DNA of 39,838 nucleotides from Alphaproteobacteria bacterium. GTDB lineage: Bacteria; Pseudomonadota; Alphaproteobacteria; Rickettsiales; VGDC01. A program made the translations under genes and the position numbers. Positions 10,227 through 24,394 of the stretch are shown piece after piece (position 1 is the first letter of the stretch; each line of letters opens with the position of its first letter). The DNA is taken from assembly GCA_022450665.1 (NCBI GenBank), contig JAKUPQ010000001.1, positions 65,272-105,109 of the forward strand, in the 5' to 3' direction. The notes beneath the pieces are model-generated. The model saw only the letters and a list, made by a program, of their open reading frames with translations, searched no databases and was not told where the DNA came from.

Positions 10227-10913
10227 TTATTGAATAGATTCCGTTGCAATTTTTTGGCCATCGCCAAATTCGAGGAATTCGAAGTTTTGCAAGTTATCGT
10301 TACTACTCACGCCGCCATCGTGACTTTGTACATAAATGCTATTGCCATCACGCCGCACACGATAAACATTTTGGGCGTACATATAAAATGCAGTATCAGT
10401 GCCACTGCCCCCATCGGCAGAGTTTGATCCGGTGCCCAGAGTTACATAGTCATTTCCTGCACCGGCATAAACTAAATCATTACCACCTTTAACATCTATA
10501 ATATTGCTCTGTCGATTGGCATAAAATACGTCATTTGCATCGGTGCTGGTGTATTCCTCCAGGTGCTTAGCAAGCAAATAATGTTTGGAATCTTTGTAGG
10601 GGATAATAATGGTTAATGAGCCTTTCCATGCAACAGCTAGCGCATCTTGATACATATCCACCCCTGGCCCGGGCGTTTGCACCACGGAACCGTTAAAGTA
10701 TTCAACATCTGAAACAATGAGTTTGGCAACATTGCGCTTAGTAGGATTCGATATCATTGAGAATCCATCGGTTTTGTCGTCTTCTCGATGAATCATATCC
10801 AGATTACTACCATCTGAGCGGATTATCATATGGGTGTAGTACACAGCGAAAGCTGCAAGCGGATAACAAATAGTTAGAAATACAATCGGTATAAATAGAA
10901 CTAAGCGCTTCAT
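10227..10913 (-). CDS. Secreted or anchored protein with RTX-like calcium-binding repeats
   Basis: A 228-residue protein of unknown function. An N-terminal hydrophobic segment (about residues 4-24, ending PLAAFA) looks like a signal peptide or anchor. Residues 140-175 contain degenerate RTX nonapeptides: GGNDLVYAG, GAGNDYVTLG, TGSNSADGG and SGTDTAFY. The tail NLQNFEFLEFGDGQ resembles the segment that follows the beta-roll in type I-secreted proteins. RTX proteins are normally exported without a Sec signal, so the combination is unusual. Its AGGAG site overlaps the end of ccmB, and only 15 nt separate the genes, so it is probably cotranscribed with ccmAB. Confidence 0.7.
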   Translation of the reverse strand: MKRLVLFIPIVFLTICYPLAAFAVYYTHMIIRSDGSNLDMIHREDDKTDGFSMISNPTKRNVAKLIVSDVEYFNGSVVQTPGPGVDMYQDALAVAWKGSLTIIIPYKDSKHYLLAKHLEEYTSTDANDVFYANRQSNIIDVKGGNDLVYAGAGNDYVTLGTGSNSADGGSGTDTAFYMYAQNVYRVRRDGNSIYVQSHDGGVSSNDNLQNFEFLEFGDGQKIATESIQ

Positions 10914-10928
10914 TTTTATTATTATCTC

Positions 10929-11600
10929 CTAATCCTGCAGCCTCACAATCCAAGCAGAAACCCAGCACGAAATTGGAATGACTGCTAGCAATAGACCCGA
11001 AAGCAGCAATGCTTCTGCCATATTATATAAAGGATTTTCGGGTGGTGACATAGCAACAATTGTAGCAAATATCAATACAGGAATATATAGCGGCAGCACC
11101 ACCACGGCCAGCACCCCTGATTTATTTGAAGCATAGAGTGTTAAAGCCGCTCCCAGCGCGCCTAAGCAGCATAATATCGGAGTGCCAAGCAACAAGGAAA
11201 CCATCAGCCGTGCCCCCTGCTCGTTGCTTACGCCAAGCATCATTGCCATGAGTGGTGCAAAAAATATTAATGGCAGTTGGCATGTAAGCCAGTTAGCAAT
11301 GCATTTTGCAAGCACACACCACTCTAATGCTAAACTTGAGAGCCGCAATTGATCGAGTGAACCATCATTCACATCCCTGTAAAACATGGCGGGTAATGAT
11401 AAGAGCGCCGAAAGCAGTGCAATCACCCAAATAAACGCAGGTGCTAAGGTGGCAATATTCGGGTTATTTGCGCCGAGCGCAAACGGAAACAATGTGAGTG
11501 CAATACAGAAGAACGCAATCACTGTACCCACCTCGCCACCTTTGCGAGCGTAGAGCTTAACTTCATAATTTACACAGTTGGTAAAGGATTTAATCAGCAT
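10929..11600 (-). CDS. ccmB: Heme exporter membrane protein CcmB
   Basis: Integral membrane partner of CcmA in cytochrome c maturation System I, helping release holo-CcmE from CcmC/D. The 223-residue product has about six hydrophobic helices and family-like stretches FYRDVNDGSLDQLRLS near the first third and LLGTPILCCLGALGAALTL in the middle. I start it at the ATG at 11600, with GAGGA just upstream; it overlaps ccmA by 11 nt. A longer frame to 11633 lacks support. Cys and aromatic content are ordinary. Confidence 0.9.
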   Translation of the reverse strand: MLIKSFTNCVNYEVKLYARKGGEVGTVIAFFCIALTLFPFALGANNPNIATLAPAFIWVIALLSALLSLPAMFYRDVNDGSLDQLRLSSLALEWCVLAKCIANWLTCQLPLIFFAPLMAMMLGVSNEQGARLMVSLLLGTPILCCLGALGAALTLYASNKSGVLAVVVLPLYIPVLIFATIVAMSPPENPLYNMAEALLLSGLLLAVIPISCWVSAWIVRLQD

Positions 11601-12225
11601 ATAAATCCTCGGAGAAAAAGCCGCAATATTCACTTACATCAAGTGTTATAGCGTTTTTAGGAATATTTTTTGAATGGCTGGCCAATATTATTATGCCGCC
11701 TTGTTTTGCCCGTGTAGCAATCAATCCATCTAGCATTTCCACACCATATGAATCTAAGTTTGCGGTTGGTTCATCCAGCAACCATATAAGACTGGGAATC
11801 GCTATTAATCGCGCCAGTGCTACTCTGCGTTGCCAGCCCGCCGAAAGCTGTCCTGCAGAAAGTTCTGCCATAGGCCATAAATCAAAAAACTGCAACGCCG
11901 CCGGAGCCAGCATTTCGCTGCCGCGCATAGACGCCCAATATTGCACGTTATCATAAACAGTAAGCTCAGGCTTAATGGCATTTTGGTGGCCGATATACAA
12001 CATCAGCTCTTTATAATCATTATTATTGTATACGTTGCGCTCCTGCCAACAAACATCGCCCTTGGCACTTGGCATTAATCCCGCAAGCATACGCAGGAGT
12101 GTGGATTTTCCACAGCCATTTGCACCGCGCAACACAAGGATAGCCCCCGGCTTTAAGCTGAAGCCTAAATGGTCGAAAAGCAATCGTTCACCGCGAATTG
12201 CACGTAAGTTTTGGCAGCTGAGCAT
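11590..12225 (-). CDS. ccmA: Heme exporter ATP-binding protein CcmA
   Basis: ABC ATPase of the CcmAB complex; its ATP hydrolysis releases heme-loaded CcmE. In 211 residues it shows Walker A GANGCGKST, the signature-like ELSAGQLSAGWQRRVALARL and Walker B LIWLLDEPTANLD, with the switch His in ASHSK. The short size without a transmembrane part is normal. It is divergent from acnA, 138 nt away. The remaining ccm genes lie about 7 kb further on the opposite strand, an uncommon split. Confidence 0.93.
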   Translation of the reverse strand: MLSCQNLRAIRGERLLFDHLGFSLKPGAILVLRGANGCGKSTLLRMLAGLMPSAKGDVCWQERNVYNNNDYKELMLYIGHQNAIKPELTVYDNVQYWASMRGSEMLAPAALQFFDLWPMAELSAGQLSAGWQRRVALARLIAIPSLIWLLDEPTANLDSYGVEMLDGLIATRAKQGGIIILASHSKNIPKNAITLDVSEYCGFFSEDLYAD

Positions 12226-18499: not shown

Positions 18500-18586
18500 A
18501 GGTAGCAAAAAATAAAAATTGGATTTGTCTAACTTTGAAGGTCTTGTATAGTGGGGGTGATTTTGAAACAACTTATAGTGGTATCT

Positions 18587-19477
18587 ATGCATCTGATAAT
18601 TCAATATGTTGCTAAATTTTTAGCTGTTATCTCGTTAATCGCTTTGTTTGCATCCTCAGCCTTGGCACTTGACAAGCAAGACGAAGATTTGATCTATGAG
18701 GCTAATTTTGGTGAGCCAGCTACGGTTGAAGCGCTTTTGAAAGCAGGTGCCAATCCCAACGCTATAGGTGAAGATAAATGGCCGGTAATTTCCCTTGCAT
18801 CTATGCGTGCGGATCAAAAAGCTTTCGATACTGTAAAGCTTTTGGTAGAGGCCGGAGCAGACCTGAATGTGCGCGACCCTAACGGCGAAACACCGCTTAT
18901 GAATGCCATTTCAATCAATAATCCGGATATGGTTAAATATATGATCGAAGAAGGTGCAGATTTTCATGCGGTAAATGCCAATGGTCGTAATGTGAAATTA
19001 TTTGCTGAACATTATGGTAATGAGGATGTTGTCTTCTTAATAGAAGAAGCGCTACGCCTCGAGAAAAAACGTATGCGCGATGGTCGTAGCCGCAAGCGCA
19101 TGTATAAAAAGCTTGATGACTACATTTATTATAACTGCGCCATGCAATACATTTCGTATAATCAAGCAGTTGGAATATATCCCAAATCTCAATCTGGCAA
19201 AACCGAGCGCTTGCTTGCTGATGTGGTGGCAAAAATCGGCAATGCACAAATGGATCTGATGTATGATTTCCGCATGGAAGAAAGAGCATTAACCAAAATA
19301 GCAAAAGACACGCAAAATCTTATTTTTGGCGACTTAGAAGCGCTTATTTCTAACCGTAACCGCATGAAATATGGTGTGGGCAAAGATTCGGATTTAGATA
19401 AGCGTTGCAAAGAAATTTTGGAAAAATGGCGCGTTGCGTATCAGCAATATGAAAACCAAGACACGCATAAAGAATAA
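18587..19477 (+). CDS. Exported ankyrin-repeat protein
   Basis: About 296 residues. A signal peptide (hydrophobic AVISLIALFASSALA) is followed by three to four ankyrin repeats (about residues 30-150): VEALLKAGANPNAIG, VKLLVEAGADLNVRDPNGETPLMNAI and VKYMIEEGADFHAVN are clear. The C-terminal half is helical and charged, with no recognised domain. Ankyrin repeats mediate protein contacts; the partner is unknown. The start is uncertain: ATG 18587 gives a normal signal peptide, while TTG 18563 and GTG 18551 are also in frame. It occupies the place before ccmD where ccmC is usually found. Confidence 0.8.
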   Translation: MHLIIQYVAKFLAVISLIALFASSALALDKQDEDLIYEANFGEPATVEALLKAGANPNAIGEDKWPVISLASMRADQKAFDTVKLLVEAGADLNVRDPNGETPLMNAISINNPDMVKYMIEEGADFHAVNANGRNVKLFAEHYGNEDVVFLIEEALRLEKKRMRDGRSRKRMYKKLDDYIYYNCAMQYISYNQAVGIYPKSQSGKTERLLADVVAKIGNAQMDLMYDFRMEERALTKIAKDTQNLIFGDLEALISNRNRMKYGVGKDSDLDKRCKEILEKWRVAYQQYENQDTHKE

Positions 19478-19674: not shown

Positions 19675-19692
19675 TGCTTGAGGCTGTTTTCG

Positions 19693-20178
19693 ATGACACC
19701 TAAACGTCAGCGTTTAATATTTGCCATTTTTGGTATTGGCTTACTCACCGCCTCTACCTTATTGATAATGAACGCATTTAATGAGCATTTGGTTTTTTTC
19801 TATACTCCCTCCGATTTGCATACGGCTCCTGCTACACCATCTTCACAACTTGTGCGTATAGGTGGATTGGTAGAAGAAGACTCTGTGACACAAACGGATA
19901 CTACAATAAATTTTGTCATTACTGATCTTTCTGCCACCCTGCCCGTAACTTATGTCGGCACTCCGCCGGCGCTGTTTCGTGAGGGGCAAGGAGTCGTAGC
20001 AGAAGGATATGTTGAAAGTAACCGCCTACGTGCCACAAAGCTTTTGGCAAAGCATGACGAAAATTATATGCCACCGGAAGTAGCAGAAGCCTTGCGTAAA
20101 TCTGGCAGATGGAAGCAGCCTGTGCCGGGTAAAGCGCAGTCAGAATCTCCAATACAACCAGCTACGGCAGCACCATGA
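19693..20178 (+). CDS. ccmE: Cytochrome c maturation heme chaperone CcmE
   Basis: Periplasmic heme chaperone, anchored by an N-terminal helix (about residues 8-28), that carries heme covalently to the CcmF/H ligation complex. The start MTPKRQRLIF and the VFFYTPSDL segment are typical. The heme-attachment region near residue 120 reads LLAKHDENYMPPE, with the essential His in KHDENYMP. From the ATG at 19693 it has 161 residues; an upstream TTG at 19678 is less likely. GAGG lies 9 nt before. Its stop overlaps the ccmF start (ATGA). Confidence 0.94.
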   Translation: MTPKRQRLIFAIFGIGLLTASTLLIMNAFNEHLVFFYTPSDLHTAPATPSSQLVRIGGLVEEDSVTQTDTTINFVITDLSATLPVTYVGTPPALFREGQGVVAEGYVESNRLRATKLLAKHDENYMPPEVAEALRKSGRWKQPVPGKAQSESPIQPATAAP

Positions 20179-22154
20179 TAGCAGAAATTGCTAATGCACT
20201 GCTGTGCCTCGCTACGTTTGCCGCACTTGCGCAATGGGGATTGGGGGGCTATGGGATACTGCGCAATCTTCATGTTCCTGATCTGACGCGACGCTTGACG
20301 CTGGTGCAGTTTGCATTGATTACGGTATCGTTTGGGTTGCTTATGACCCTTTACATTATCTCTGATTTTAGTGTGATGAATGTTTATGAAAATTCGCACA
20401 GCACGATGCCATTGCTATATAAAATCACCGGGAGCTGGGGTAACCACGAAGGCTCTATGCTGCTTTGGCTGTGGGTATTGAGCGCCTATGGCGTAGCTTA
20501 TGCTTATGTGCGCCCATCAGTAGATTTTGATAAACCGGTGGCGTTTTATTGCACAGTGTTAACAATTGTGGCGTTTGTAGCTTTTGGATTACTCTTGTTT
20601 ATCCTCCTTACATCGAATCCATTCTTGCGTATAGCTGATGTGCCAATTGAAGGGCGCGAGCTTAATCCATTATTGCAGGATATTGGTCTGGCAATGCATC
20701 CTCCCTTGCTATATCTGGGTTATGTGGGCTTTGTAATGGTGTTTGCCATTGCTATTGCTGCATTGGTTGTGCAACAGGATATCAATAGCTTATGGGCGGT
20801 ACATGTTCGTCCGTGGGCGCTCTTGGCATGGAGCTTACTCACTGCAGGTATCGGCCTTGGTAGTTGGTGGGCATATCGCGAATTAGGCTGGGGCGGTTGG
20901 TGGTTCTGGGATCCGGTAGAAAATGTATCTTTATTGCCGTGGCTGTCTGCTACCGCATTAATTCACTGCCTATTAGTGTTAACGAAACGTCCTATTTTGC
21001 AAAACTGGACATTACTGCTGGCGATATTTACTTTCACCTTCAGCTTGCTGGGTACATTTTTGGTACGCTCCGGCTTGCTAACTTCGGTGCATAGTTTTGC
21101 TAGCGATCCTACCCGTGGATTATACATACTATCATTTATCGCACTACTAACCCTTGGCAGCCTTGCTATTTACGCTGTGCGTTATCCACGTGCTAATGCG
21201 CCGGATTTTGTGCCCCTATCTCGTGAGGGAGGGATTATGGTCAATAACCTGCTATTGGTAGTGCTTTGCGCTACTATATTGCTGGGTATCATTTATCCCC
21301 TGCTCATGCAAATTTTTACTATGCCCTCGGTTTCGGTGGGCGCACCATATTATAATACAGTGGTGGTGCCTATTTGTGTGCCATTATTGATTCTGGCAGG
21401 CTTAACCCCCTTAATTTCATGGCGACAGGCAAGCTGGAAGGCCTCGCTACGTTTAGTGAAACATAGCGTTATGGTGACGCTTTTGGTGGCGGTTGGCGCA
21501 TGGCTGTTGCAGGGGAACATATTAAGCAATCTCTATCATACTCCAATGGCATTATTTATAGGCATTGCAGGAGTGTGGATGCTTGGCGCAACCCTAAGCT
21601 ATGGAAAAAAGTTATTGCGTAGTGTCAATCGCCCTGCCCTAAGCCAATACGGAATGCTGCTGGCACATGGTGGCTTGGCAGTTTTTGCAATCGCCGCCGC
21701 GTGCGCTACCGTGGGTCGTGTGGAGGCCGAACACAAGATGATAGTGAATGATAAAATTGTGGTGGAGGGTTATGAAATCGAACTTGCAGAGCTAGAGCCT
21801 ATGCAATACGAAAACTATATGCGTACCCGCGCCACACTTCATGTAACAAGTCTGAACAACCAAACTGCAATTACCTTAACCCCTGAAATGCGCTACTATC
21901 CAACGCGACAGATGGAAACATCGGAGTCCTCTATTTTTGTAAGTATGCAGCACGATTTGTATACGGCGGTTGCAACAGGCACCAATTTAGGCAATAGTAG
22001 TAAAAAGCAAGATTTTATCGTTTTGCGTGTGTATATTATTCCTGCAATGTGGTGGTTATGGCTGGGTTTTCTTTCTGTAGCAATGGGCGGTTTAATTGCA
22101 GCGGCAGCTTATTTCCATAAATCACATCGCTTTTCATATCAAGGTTCAGGCTAG
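20175..22154 (+). CDS. ccmF: Cytochrome c heme lyase subunit CcmF
   Basis: Large inner-membrane subunit of the System I heme ligation complex, 659 residues with about 14-15 predicted helices. The tryptophan-rich WWD motif is GWGGWWFWDPVENVSLLPW, and the upstream WGNHEGSMLLW and conserved periplasmic His residues are also present. The last part has the usual large periplasmic loop and a final helix. Translation is probably coupled to ccmE by the 4-nt overlap. Confidence 0.95.
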   Translation: MIAEIANALLCLATFAALAQWGLGGYGILRNLHVPDLTRRLTLVQFALITVSFGLLMTLYIISDFSVMNVYENSHSTMPLLYKITGSWGNHEGSMLLWLWVLSAYGVAYAYVRPSVDFDKPVAFYCTVLTIVAFVAFGLLLFILLTSNPFLRIADVPIEGRELNPLLQDIGLAMHPPLLYLGYVGFVMVFAIAIAALVVQQDINSLWAVHVRPWALLAWSLLTAGIGLGSWWAYRELGWGGWWFWDPVENVSLLPWLSATALIHCLLVLTKRPILQNWTLLLAIFTFTFSLLGTFLVRSGLLTSVHSFASDPTRGLYILSFIALLTLGSLAIYAVRYPRANAPDFVPLSREGGIMVNNLLLVVLCATILLGIIYPLLMQIFTMPSVSVGAPYYNTVVVPICVPLLILAGLTPLISWRQASWKASLRLVKHSVMVTLLVAVGAWLLQGNILSNLYHTPMALFIGIAGVWMLGATLSYGKKLLRSVNRPALSQYGMLLAHGGLAVFAIAAACATVGRVEAEHKMIVNDKIVVEGYEIELAELEPMQYENYMRTRATLHVTSLNNQTAITLTPEMRYYPTRQMETSESSIFVSMQHDLYTAVATGTNLGNSSKKQDFIVLRVYIIPAMWWLWLGFLSVAMGGLIAAAAYFHKSHRFSYQGSG

Positions 22155-22157
22155 CTT

Positions 22158-22781
22158 ATGGTTAATATGAAATTCTCTCATCCACTACAGTGGCCTAATG
22201 GTTTTCCGCGTACAGAAAAATGGGAAAAAAGCATCAACAACTCCTTCAAAGTTGGCTTAACCCTGCAAGAAGCACTCACATTTGTTTATGACGAGTTGAA
22301 TGAACTGGGAGCTAAGAAAGCCACATTATTCACCGACTATGAAAATGTTGAACAGCCGCGCAGCGTACGCCGTGTAGGTAGCGATAATGGTGCAGCACTC
22401 AGCTTTGAATACAATGAACAAGTCTATCGCATGGCGTGTGATCGCTGGGTCAATCTTGAACAAAACATTTATGCCATTCATCTGGCTATTCGTAATATGC
22501 GCCACATCGTCCTGTGGGGCGTTGGCAATGTAGAAAATGTTTTTGGTGGATACAGCACTAAAGCACAGCAATCAGCACAGCCTCGAAGTGGTGCAACAAA
22601 TGCGAAAACCGCTCATACTACAGATGGCTGGCGGTTGGAACTTGGCCTAGGCCCTACAGCTACTTTGGATGATGCACAGGCAGTTTATCGCAGACGCGCT
22701 AAAAACTTTGCAAATAATCAGGAAGAGCTAATGAAATTGAATCTTGCTATGGATGAGGCAACAAAGGCTTTAAGCCTTTAA
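22158..22781 (+). CDS. Degenerate J-domain-like protein of a mobile-element family
   Basis: A 207-residue protein not normally part of ccm operons. The first 130 residues (LQWPNGFPRTEKWEKS near the start, later YRMACDRWVNLEQNI and an Ala-rich helix up to VENVFGGY) match, from memory, a family with a C-terminal J domain found on integrated elements and plasmids of Proteobacteria. The last 50 residues resemble a J domain (LELGLGPTATLDDAQAVYRR, then KLNLAMDEATKAL), but the HPD tripeptide needed to stimulate DnaK is absent; the loop reads AKNFANNQEE. It starts 3 nt after ccmF and ends 10 nt before ccmG, so it is cotranscribed. The role is unknown. Confidence 0.7.
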   Translation: MVNMKFSHPLQWPNGFPRTEKWEKSINNSFKVGLTLQEALTFVYDELNELGAKKATLFTDYENVEQPRSVRRVGSDNGAALSFEYNEQVYRMACDRWVNLEQNIYAIHLAIRNMRHIVLWGVGNVENVFGGYSTKAQQSAQPRSGATNAKTAHTTDGWRLELGLGPTATLDDAQAVYRRRAKNFANNQEELMKLNLAMDEATKALSL

Positions 22782-22791
22782 TGGATTGCAA

Positions 22792-23352
22792 ATGAACCGA
22801 GTATTTCGCATATTACCCCTTTTGATGATAGCTGTTTTGACTGGCGCAATGTTACTACGTATATTTCAAGAGCAAGCGCCCGAATTGAGTGCTGGGCTAT
22901 ATCTTGACCCCATGCTAGATAAACCTATCCCTGCATTATCTCTTGCGCCACTTCACAATACCGATCGCCCACTTAATTTGGCTGAGCTTAAAGGCGAGCC
23001 ATATTTGTTCAACGTGTTTGCTTCCTGGTGCTCTATGTGCCAACTTGAGCACGAAGAATTAAAAAAGCTTAAAGAAAAAACCGGATTGCCTCTTTATGGC
23101 ATGGCGTGGAAAGATAATCCCGAAGATACGAAAATTTGGTTGAATCGTTTTGGTAATATTTATGATGCCGTTGGTACGGATATACATGGTAAAGCCGCAA
23201 TAGAACTTGGCCTTACGGGTTCACCCGAAACATATTTGGTAGATAAGAATGGCATAATCATCGCAATTAACCGCGGTGTGTTAGCCGAGGTAATTGCAAA
23301 TCACCGGTTTTTACCGGCGCTGCTAGAAGCACAACAAGAAGGCGCTATATGA
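22792..23352 (+). CDS. ccmG: Thiol:disulfide interchange protein CcmG/DsbE
   Basis: Membrane-anchored periplasmic thioredoxin-fold reductant that keeps the apocytochrome CxxCH thiols reduced. It has an N-terminal anchor helix, then a thioredoxin domain with active site WCSMC and the cis-Pro loop GSPETYLVD. Many homologues have a proline inside the CxxC; this one has Ser-Met. I use the ATG at 22792 rather than the TTG at 22786. Length is 186 residues. Its end overlaps ccmH by 4 nt (ATGA). Confidence 0.92.
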   Translation: MNRVFRILPLLMIAVLTGAMLLRIFQEQAPELSAGLYLDPMLDKPIPALSLAPLHNTDRPLNLAELKGEPYLFNVFASWCSMCQLEHEELKKLKEKTGLPLYGMAWKDNPEDTKIWLNRFGNIYDAVGTDIHGKAAIELGLTGSPETYLVDKNGIIIAINRGVLAEVIANHRFLPALLEAQQEGAI

Positions 23353-23753
23353 TACGATTGTTAATGATTACATGGCTTTGCATTGCCGCCTTCCCAGTGT
23401 CGGCACAAGTTACGCAATCGGAAACGGCTCTCACTGACAGCTCACAAGAGCAACGCGCTAGAGCATTGTTTCGTGAGCTGCGTTGCGAAGTTTGCGATGG
23501 ACAAACCATTGCTGATTCTAACGCGGGGCTAGCACAGGATATGCGCATACTCGTGCGTGATAAGCTGCGCGAAGGACAAAGCGATGAGGCCATTTTAGGC
23601 TTTTTTTCCGAACGTTATGGGCAAGATATTCTAATGCGTCCACCTATGAATAGCGAAACGGCTCCCTTGTGGCTGGCGCCAATTTTCGTGTTGCTTATGG
23701 GTGGATGGTTTATTATTCGCTATTTCGCCCGTAAAAAGCAGTCGCATTTCTAA
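23349..23753 (+). CDS. ccmH: Cytochrome c maturation protein CcmH (CycL type)
   Basis: Periplasmic thiol-redox component of the heme ligation complex. The 134-residue protein has a signal peptide ending near VSAQ, the redox motif LRCEVC in LFRELRCEVCDGQTIADS, the conserved RILVRDKLREGQSDEAI helix, and a C-terminal membrane helix (about 105-125). This is the short form without the TPR domain that is fused in E. coli; the TPR part is the next gene. Confidence 0.93.
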   Translation: MIRLLMITWLCIAAFPVSAQVTQSETALTDSSQEQRARALFRELRCEVCDGQTIADSNAGLAQDMRILVRDKLREGQSDEAILGFFSERYGQDILMRPPMNSETAPLWLAPIFVLLMGGWFIIRYFARKKQSHF

Positions 23754-24394
23754 TGGGTGCGGATTCAACGGTTTTCTATATTGCTGCTTTCATTGTAATT
23801 ATCATTACTTTGGCGGCGTGGCCGTGGATTAAAAACCCGCAAACCCGCGAAAAAAGCATAGTATTTTCACTGGTGGGTGCGTTGCTTTCATTGGCATTAT
23901 ACATGTTTGTAGGCAGCCCTTATCAACAAGAACACATTGAAGATAAACAACATAACAATACCGAGTTAATAGGCCAGATCACGCAGTTATCTGATGCGCT
24001 TTCGATGGCAGAAGCACCAGACGATCCAAGCTATGCTTCGCAATGGATTAAATTGGGCGCCGCGCATATGCAGTTAGAGCAATACGACGCAGCAGCCGAA
24101 GCTTTTCGCCATGCGGTGCTGGCAAGCGAAGGTCAACCAGAAATTATTTTGGTCTATGGAAAAGCGCAATTATTGGCAGCCGATGGTGTACTCACTCCTT
24201 CAGCAGAACACAGCCTGAAAATGGCAAGCAGGTTAATGCCAGATAACCCGGAGCCTATGATGCTGATAGCAATGGGGCATATGCAAAATGGTGAAACCGA
24301 TGCAGCACGCGAGATGTTCAAAAAATTATTACCACTGCTTCCCGAATCTGCACCGCTCAGACAGCGTTTAATGCAACAAATGCCAGAAGAATAA
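23753..24394 (+). CDS. ccmI: Cytochrome c biogenesis TPR protein CcmI (CycH)
   Basis: Apocytochrome chaperone of the heme ligation complex. Two N-terminal membrane helices (about residues 5-25 and 37-53) are followed by TPR-like repeats, including WIKLGAAHMQLEQYDAAAEAF and MLIAMGHMQNGETDAAREMF. At 213 residues it is shorter than the 350-400 residues of many alphaproteobacterial CycH proteins and has only the TPR-containing periplasmic part, without an extended C-terminal domain. It overlaps the ccmH stop by one base and ends the operon, 5 nt from the convergent next gene. Confidence 0.88.
   Translation: MGADSTVFYIAAFIVIIITLAAWPWIKNPQTREKSIVFSLVGALLSLALYMFVGSPYQQEHIEDKQHNNTELIGQITQLSDALSMAEAPDDPSYASQWIKLGAAHMQLEQYDAAAEAFRHAVLASEGQPEIILVYGKAQLLAADGVLTPSAEHSLKMASRLMPDNPEPMMLIAMGHMQNGETDAAREMFKKLLPLLPESAPLRQRLMQQMPEE

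Follow-up and report, generated by a model that had tools for sequence, protein, structure and literature searches.

Two kinds of described proteins come closest to the one reported here: degenerate J proteins such as Pam16/Tim16, and phrog_9210, a phage protein family of unknown function. The J domain of Pam16 lacks the HPD motif and forms a complex with Pam18 (PMC13254874). In known J proteins, even conservative changes in HPD abolish stimulation, although a designed J analogue reportedly stimulates Hsp70 even with no HPD (PMC13254874). Few descriptions exist of domesticated phage J proteins or of bacterial J-like proteins that lack HPD and are under selection; our literature searches returned none, and nothing relevant was found on the family treated below or on any J protein in ccm operons. 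We describe here a gene in the ccm operon of environmental Rickettsiales for which, on balance, we favor the following reading: a phage or plasmid J gene was captured once, lost its HPD motif, and now probably encodes a cytoplasmic pseudo-J adaptor, with a pre-apocytochrome as its likeliest client.

The window, that is, the whole stretch of 39,838 nucleotides that was analyzed, encodes this 207-residue pseudo-J protein (hereafter J) at 22158..22781 on the plus strand, with ATG 22158 as the start and ATG 22167 as a possible alternative. The gene lies directly 3′ of ccmF (20175..22154, +; PF16327 (CcmF_C), 5.9e-69; PF01578, 2.9e-45) and directly 5′ of a thioredoxin-like ccmG/dsbE gene (22792..23352, +; TIGR00385, 4.3e-35). 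The initial annotation had placed it between ccmF and ccmG as a gene possibly captured from a mobile element and had proposed a profile search, a structure prediction, and a survey of ccm operons in relatives as checks. The reading frame of 207 codons was found exactly as described, 3 nt from the ccmF stop and 10 nt from the ccmG ATG at 22792, the latter gap being 4 nt if ccmG starts at the alternative TTG 22786. The cluster further contains ccmE (19678..20178, +; PF03100, 1.6e-29), ccmH (23349..23753, +; PF03918, 1.7e-39), and ccmI (CycH TPR; 23753..24394, +; PF23914, 5.5e-15), and it is preceded by an ankyrin-repeat gene 5′ of ccmE (18551..19477, +). About 7.5 kb from this ccmEF-J-GHI cluster, on the opposite strand, are ccmB (Pfam match) and an ABC ATPase gene (10929-11633 and 11590-12225, 44-nt overlap); the ATPase looks ccmA-like by inspection only. 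Directly downstream of ccmB, the minus-strand stretch 10227-10913 encodes a protein with RTX-type calcium-binding repeats rich in glycine and aspartate (GGNDLVYAGAGND).

The J protein had no match in Pfam, including Pfam DnaJ, or in NCBIfam, and a sequence search against solved structures gave no meaningful match. The proposed profile search, in turn, identified it as a full-length member of phrog_9210 (E = 6e-28, residues 8-204, i.e., essentially the entire protein). The kinship of the N-terminal part to element-borne J proteins, which the initial annotation had proposed, was borne out as well, as residues 1-130 alone match 107 of the 128 element-borne members (best 1.6e-14; E < 1e-3 with the database size set to one million). 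Full-length phage relatives detected by tblastn include those of Caulobacter, Synechococcus, Erythrobacter, and Microcystis phages and of Halorubrum virus BJ1. Plasmids of Nostoc, Tolypothrix, and haloarchaea carry further relatives, which are for the most part annotated as J domain proteins, and IMG/VR yielded 150 contigs by one query and 39 by another. Phage copies occur close to SSB, exonuclease, and Bet genes, among genes of DNA metabolism. In HPD-bearing relatives, Pfam DnaJ sits at the C-terminus, in a position homologous to the J-like hairpin described below, and the C-terminal part only of the phrog_9210-family profile matches DnaJ proteins in most Rickettsiales genomes.

Structure prediction with AlphaFold2 modelled J (pLDDT 91.5) as an HPF/YfiA-like domain followed by a J-like hairpin. 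The predicted N-terminal alpha/beta domain (residues 1-128; 22158..22541, +) has a strand-helix-three strands-helix order, an HPF/YfiA-like arrangement, and reached a pLDDT of 93.7 and a pTM of 0.88 when modelled alone. It is followed by a putative flexible linker (residues 139-155; 22572..22622, +; pLDDT <50 at residues 146-154) and by the J-like helical hairpin (residues 156-207; 22623..22778, +), with predicted helices at 157-162, 170-183, and 188-205. Known J domains align to the modelled hairpin at Z 5.5-6.8, for example 6jmg_B at 1.6 Å over 52 residues. The best 19 structural neighbors of residues 1-128 are all HPF/YfiA proteins, followed mostly by dsRBDs, with Z up to 7.5 (3.7 Å over 87 residues), best Foldseek E-values of 0.012-0.03, and an identity of 0-14%. 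As Z is below 8, the kinship to HPF is suggestive only, and the likeness may reflect merely a common arrangement.

A full-length J gene was found in 17 of the 105 Rickettsiales genomes sampled, in five families; none of the carriers is known to be in culture. The source organism is itself a member of the Rickettsiales, and the relatives found in named collections are MAGs from the environment that bear the label Rickettsiales or Alphaproteobacteria. The survey of ccm operons placed J directly after ccmF in 13 of the 17 carriers, with tight or overlapping spacing in most of these 13 genomes; in 15 carriers, it lies between ccmF and ccmG or adjoins one of them. The four carriers without ccmF linkage have a ccmG-like neighbor (G086 and G087) or an ankyrin neighbor (G020 and G040). 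The window gene, with its ccm operon context, does not share the family's carriage on mobile elements. Two local departures were seen: in G096 (L082 7062-8846), tsaD rather than ccmG follows the ccmF-linked J, a local operon break, and G068 (G068:C33, L085) has a second ccmF without J, which is overlapped by a long CcmH-like frame. Presence in most alphaproteobacterial ccm operons, which would have spoken against the capture first suggested, was not seen: among 385 Alphaproteobacteria genomes, a ccm-type profile retrieved two Rickettsiales carriers and one other protein. The latter, the sole match outside Rickettsiales, is an integrase-linked, HPD-bearing copy. No relative was confirmed when viral contigs were scanned with the same profile. 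Beside its ccm-type copy, genome G087 has a second, HPD-bearing copy of the family near a tyrosine integrase (G087:C2, L025 4320-4895), and a mobile form of the family thus still circulates in Rickettsiales.

Four of the J-carrying genomes (G020, G040, G086, and G087) were found to lack CcmE, CcmF, and a convincing CcmB, G086 having a weak CcmB-like match only. They belong to three families scattered over different parts of the J clade, and all four encode ResB, of System II, together with cytochrome c1. J was therefore kept in three lineages after the loss of CcmE, CcmF, and CcmB, which is a new observation, and System I was repeatedly replaced by System II inside Rickettsiales; the main texts of the Rickettsiales phylogenomics papers searched mention neither 'cytochrome c' nor 'ccm'. 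The lineages without Ccm and with ResB and cytochrome c1 are G020, G040, G086, G067, G087, and G041 (loci L019, L022, L023, and L024). J is missing from G067 (89% complete), which has ResB and belongs to the same genus as G086, so retention of J may not be universal. A search for System III (Cyto_heme_lyase) gave no match, and gave none in the control genomes either.

Gene order suggests how J came to stand alone. Family f20 has the order ankyrin-J, while the window's family and two J-less families have ankyrin-ccmE-ccmF; ccmE-ccmF were thus most simply deleted from between the ankyrin gene and J. Inspection by eye of three frames 5′ of J revealed no CcmF remnants in f20 or G087. In G086 and G087, a ccmG-like thioredoxin gene with CxxC is still present 3′ of J, which in G087 follows RNase E. 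Upstream of J in G086 (L022 ~2615-2752), a short frame with one hydrophobic stretch, possibly CcmD-like, has a stop that overlaps the J start. In four genomes, which represent three families, the ankyrin gene stands directly 5′ of ccmE; in the two f20 genomes, which have lost ccm, J is the gene that directly follows it (window 18551-19477; L078 2176-3468; L092 3255-4253; L093 9295-10215; L019 10080-10934; L023 1112-1972).

Conversely, CcmF occurs without J in 63 of the 88 J-less genomes. The presence and absence of CcmF (13/4 among J carriers vs 63/25 among J-less genomes) shows no association with J (Fisher p = 0.78), which leaves gene order to carry the link to cytochromes. J therefore has the operon location expected of a Ccm component (13/17) but does not co-occur with the Ccm system. 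This double dissociation, with J lacking CcmE/F/B in four genomes and CcmF lacking J in 63, would be explained if J were a domesticated pseudo-J unrelated to cytochromes that merely uses the ccm promoter, for instance to tune DnaK/DnaJ or as a decoy against phages bringing J proteins. The position of J after the ankyrin gene in f20 and after RNase E in G087 agrees with such a role, as does the location of the phage family members among DNA-metabolism genes. However, the ccm-operon position is conserved in four families, and J remained beside ccmG in two lineages after the loss of ccmE/ccmF, where a free agent might be expected to move. We regard this explanation as a serious contender with a somewhat less than even chance, and we consider a role outside cytochromes nearly as probable as a pre-apocytochrome client.

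The same genomes bear on the proposal that J is an auxiliary Ccm part holding CcmF, as the initial annotation had suggested, or the CcmFGH complex. In most of the 13 genomes that have the two genes side by side, J lies very close to ccmF or overlaps it, which would suit such a partner, but J was kept after the loss of CcmE, CcmF, and CcmB in three lineages, and in f20 it is still constrained. Moreover, 63 genomes have CcmF and no J, and inspection of the J sequence by eye revealed neither an evident signal peptide nor an evident membrane segment. J cannot be only a CcmF helper, since it persists in the four genomes without CcmE/F/B and is missing from the 63 with CcmF, and we consider the holder role improbable.

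In an alignment of 145 members, the HPD position of the window protein reads A185-N186-N187 (22710..22718, +), and the GGS loop that follows is deleted. The loss of HPD had been noticed from the window gene at the outset, and it extends to all 16 clade relatives: 113 of the 128 element-borne proteins have the motif, against 0 of 17 from Rickettsiales, in which the loop is short and GGS is missing. Of the 15 HPD-less element-borne proteins, one is truncated. As some phage members also lack the motif, its absence marks a branch and not the family. The two groups differ at other sites as well. S58, D76, Y82, R115, and R119 are near-invariant in element-borne members and lost or unconserved in the ccm clade. 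In the ccm clade alone, near-invariance is seen at Y105, H108, L109, R112, R180, A181, K182, L194, and N195, while P9, P13, F30, E46, C94, D95, W97, N103, and G121 are kept in both groups. The G087 copy has a long branch and has lost C94-D95. J might still be a working co-chaperone that recruits DnaK in an unusual manner without HPD, given that the J fold is kept and that a designed analogue reportedly stimulates Hsp70 without the motif (PMC13254874). With the entire HPD loop deleted, and with conservative changes in the motif already abolishing stimulation in known J proteins (PMC13254874), we find this even less probable than a CcmF holder.

A maximum-likelihood tree of 75 members (HPD columns left out, no outgroup) grouped the 17 Rickettsiales proteins into a single clade (100/100) with every element-borne member outside it, and the branching inside the clade largely tracks families. 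This separation agrees with the capture that had been suggested and, as judged from the sequences, points to a single domestication followed by vertical descent and losses. The HPD-less phage proteins are scattered in the tree among HPD-bearing phages, which indicates that they lost the motif independently. The HPD-less copies of phages Sansa and R6L, whose tails resemble that of the ccm form, were considered as its source and were rejected, as the tree places both outside the ccm clade. Transfer was probably from element to chromosome, given the breadth of the element-borne family and HPD as the ancestral state. Sister genera with an intact ccm lost or never had J, and in the CcmF tree, genera with and without J group together inside families f23 and f29; J was therefore lost (or gained) there without replacement of ccmF.

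Within one genus, the amino-acid identity is 60-74% for J, 69-76% for CcmF, and 46-63% for CcmG, with saturated synonymous sites, and the dN of J is as low as that of CcmF while dS is saturated. A comparison of the two f20 genomes, which have no Ccm, gives an identity of 71% for J and of 55% for the ankyrin protein next to it. J is thus under purifying selection and is not a pseudogene, and a frame conserved in 17 genomes with CcmF-like conservation is more than chance. That J is what remains, in decay, of a prophage or element that inserted recently, as the lost HPD and the phage-borne family might suggest, is untenable in view of the selection data, the intact frame in 17 genomes, and an operon that holds no other element genes.

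The reading that we favor, a captured J gene turned cytoplasmic adaptor, would proceed as follows. In an ancestor shared by several environmental Rickettsiales families, a single insertion would have put a J gene of the phrog_9210 family between ccmF and ccmG. The gene would then have been inherited vertically. On this branch, HPD was lost together with its loop, as were several residues of the N-terminal part that hardly vary among mobile-element members, and new clade-specific invariant residues arose. The present protein would not stimulate DnaK in the usual way; its J-like hairpin is probably a docking surface, by analogy with the degenerate J domain of Pam16, and its N-terminal domain would bind the client. 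J is presumably co-expressed with the ccm genes, and the lack of an evident membrane segment or signal peptide suggests that it sits in the cytoplasm. As J stays with ccm genes yet persists where System II replaced Ccm, its client would most likely be common to Systems I and II. The best candidate is pre-apocytochrome c, which we put forward tentatively, at somewhat less than an even chance. The broader proposal that a phage-derived, DnaK-independent J protein aids c-type cytochrome biogenesis in the cytoplasm, before heme attachment and upstream of both systems, is rather unlikely as a whole, though worth stating. If true, an auxiliary J factor would have survived the swap of a whole maturation machine.

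The domestication of J appears to be ancient, being traceable through five families. System I gave way to System II three times, and each time the neighboring J survived. This natural experiment distinguishes a helper specific to one machine from a factor serving something common to both systems, and it yields a testable hypothesis, namely a cytoplasmic step before heme attachment. The HPF/YfiA-like fold may in addition hint at the binding targets of the phage proteins (nucleic acid or ribosome, as an ancestral role).

Compared with known systems, J is closest to phrog_9210, as represented by Caulobacter phage Sansa gp74, Synechococcus phage Ssp-JY39, Erythrobacter phage vB_EliS_R6L, Halorubrum virus BJ1 ORF5, and the Nostoc and Tolypothrix plasmid proteins. 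It shares with this family the predicted N-terminal alpha/beta domain and C-terminal J-like hairpin, as well as the conserved P9, P13, F30, C94-D95, W97, N103, G121, and Y177. The window's clade differs in its chromosomal location, which in most carriers is within the ccm operon or next to it, in its other invariant residues, and in its lack of HPD (present in 0/17 vs 113/128 element-borne members). The likeness to HPF/YfiA hibernation factors, the best structural neighbors of residues 1-128, concerns the fold of the N-terminal domain only. Judged by its sequence, J lacks the HPD expected of class C, Hsp70-stimulating J proteins. As modelled, it falls among the type IV (pseudo-J) proteins, having a recognizable J fold in which HPD is non-conservatively replaced, an assignment that relies on the alignment of the hairpin to J domains and on homology to Pfam-DnaJ-positive relatives. 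With Pam16/Tim16 and other proteins of that class, J would share a J fold without HPD that is preserved by selection, and the adaptor proposed here, acting without stimulation of DnaK, would follow a logic comparable to that of Pam16. Unlike Pam16/Tim16, however, J is bacterial, has an HPF-like N-terminal domain, and has no membrane anchor, no known J partner, and no demonstrated sequence kinship to them.
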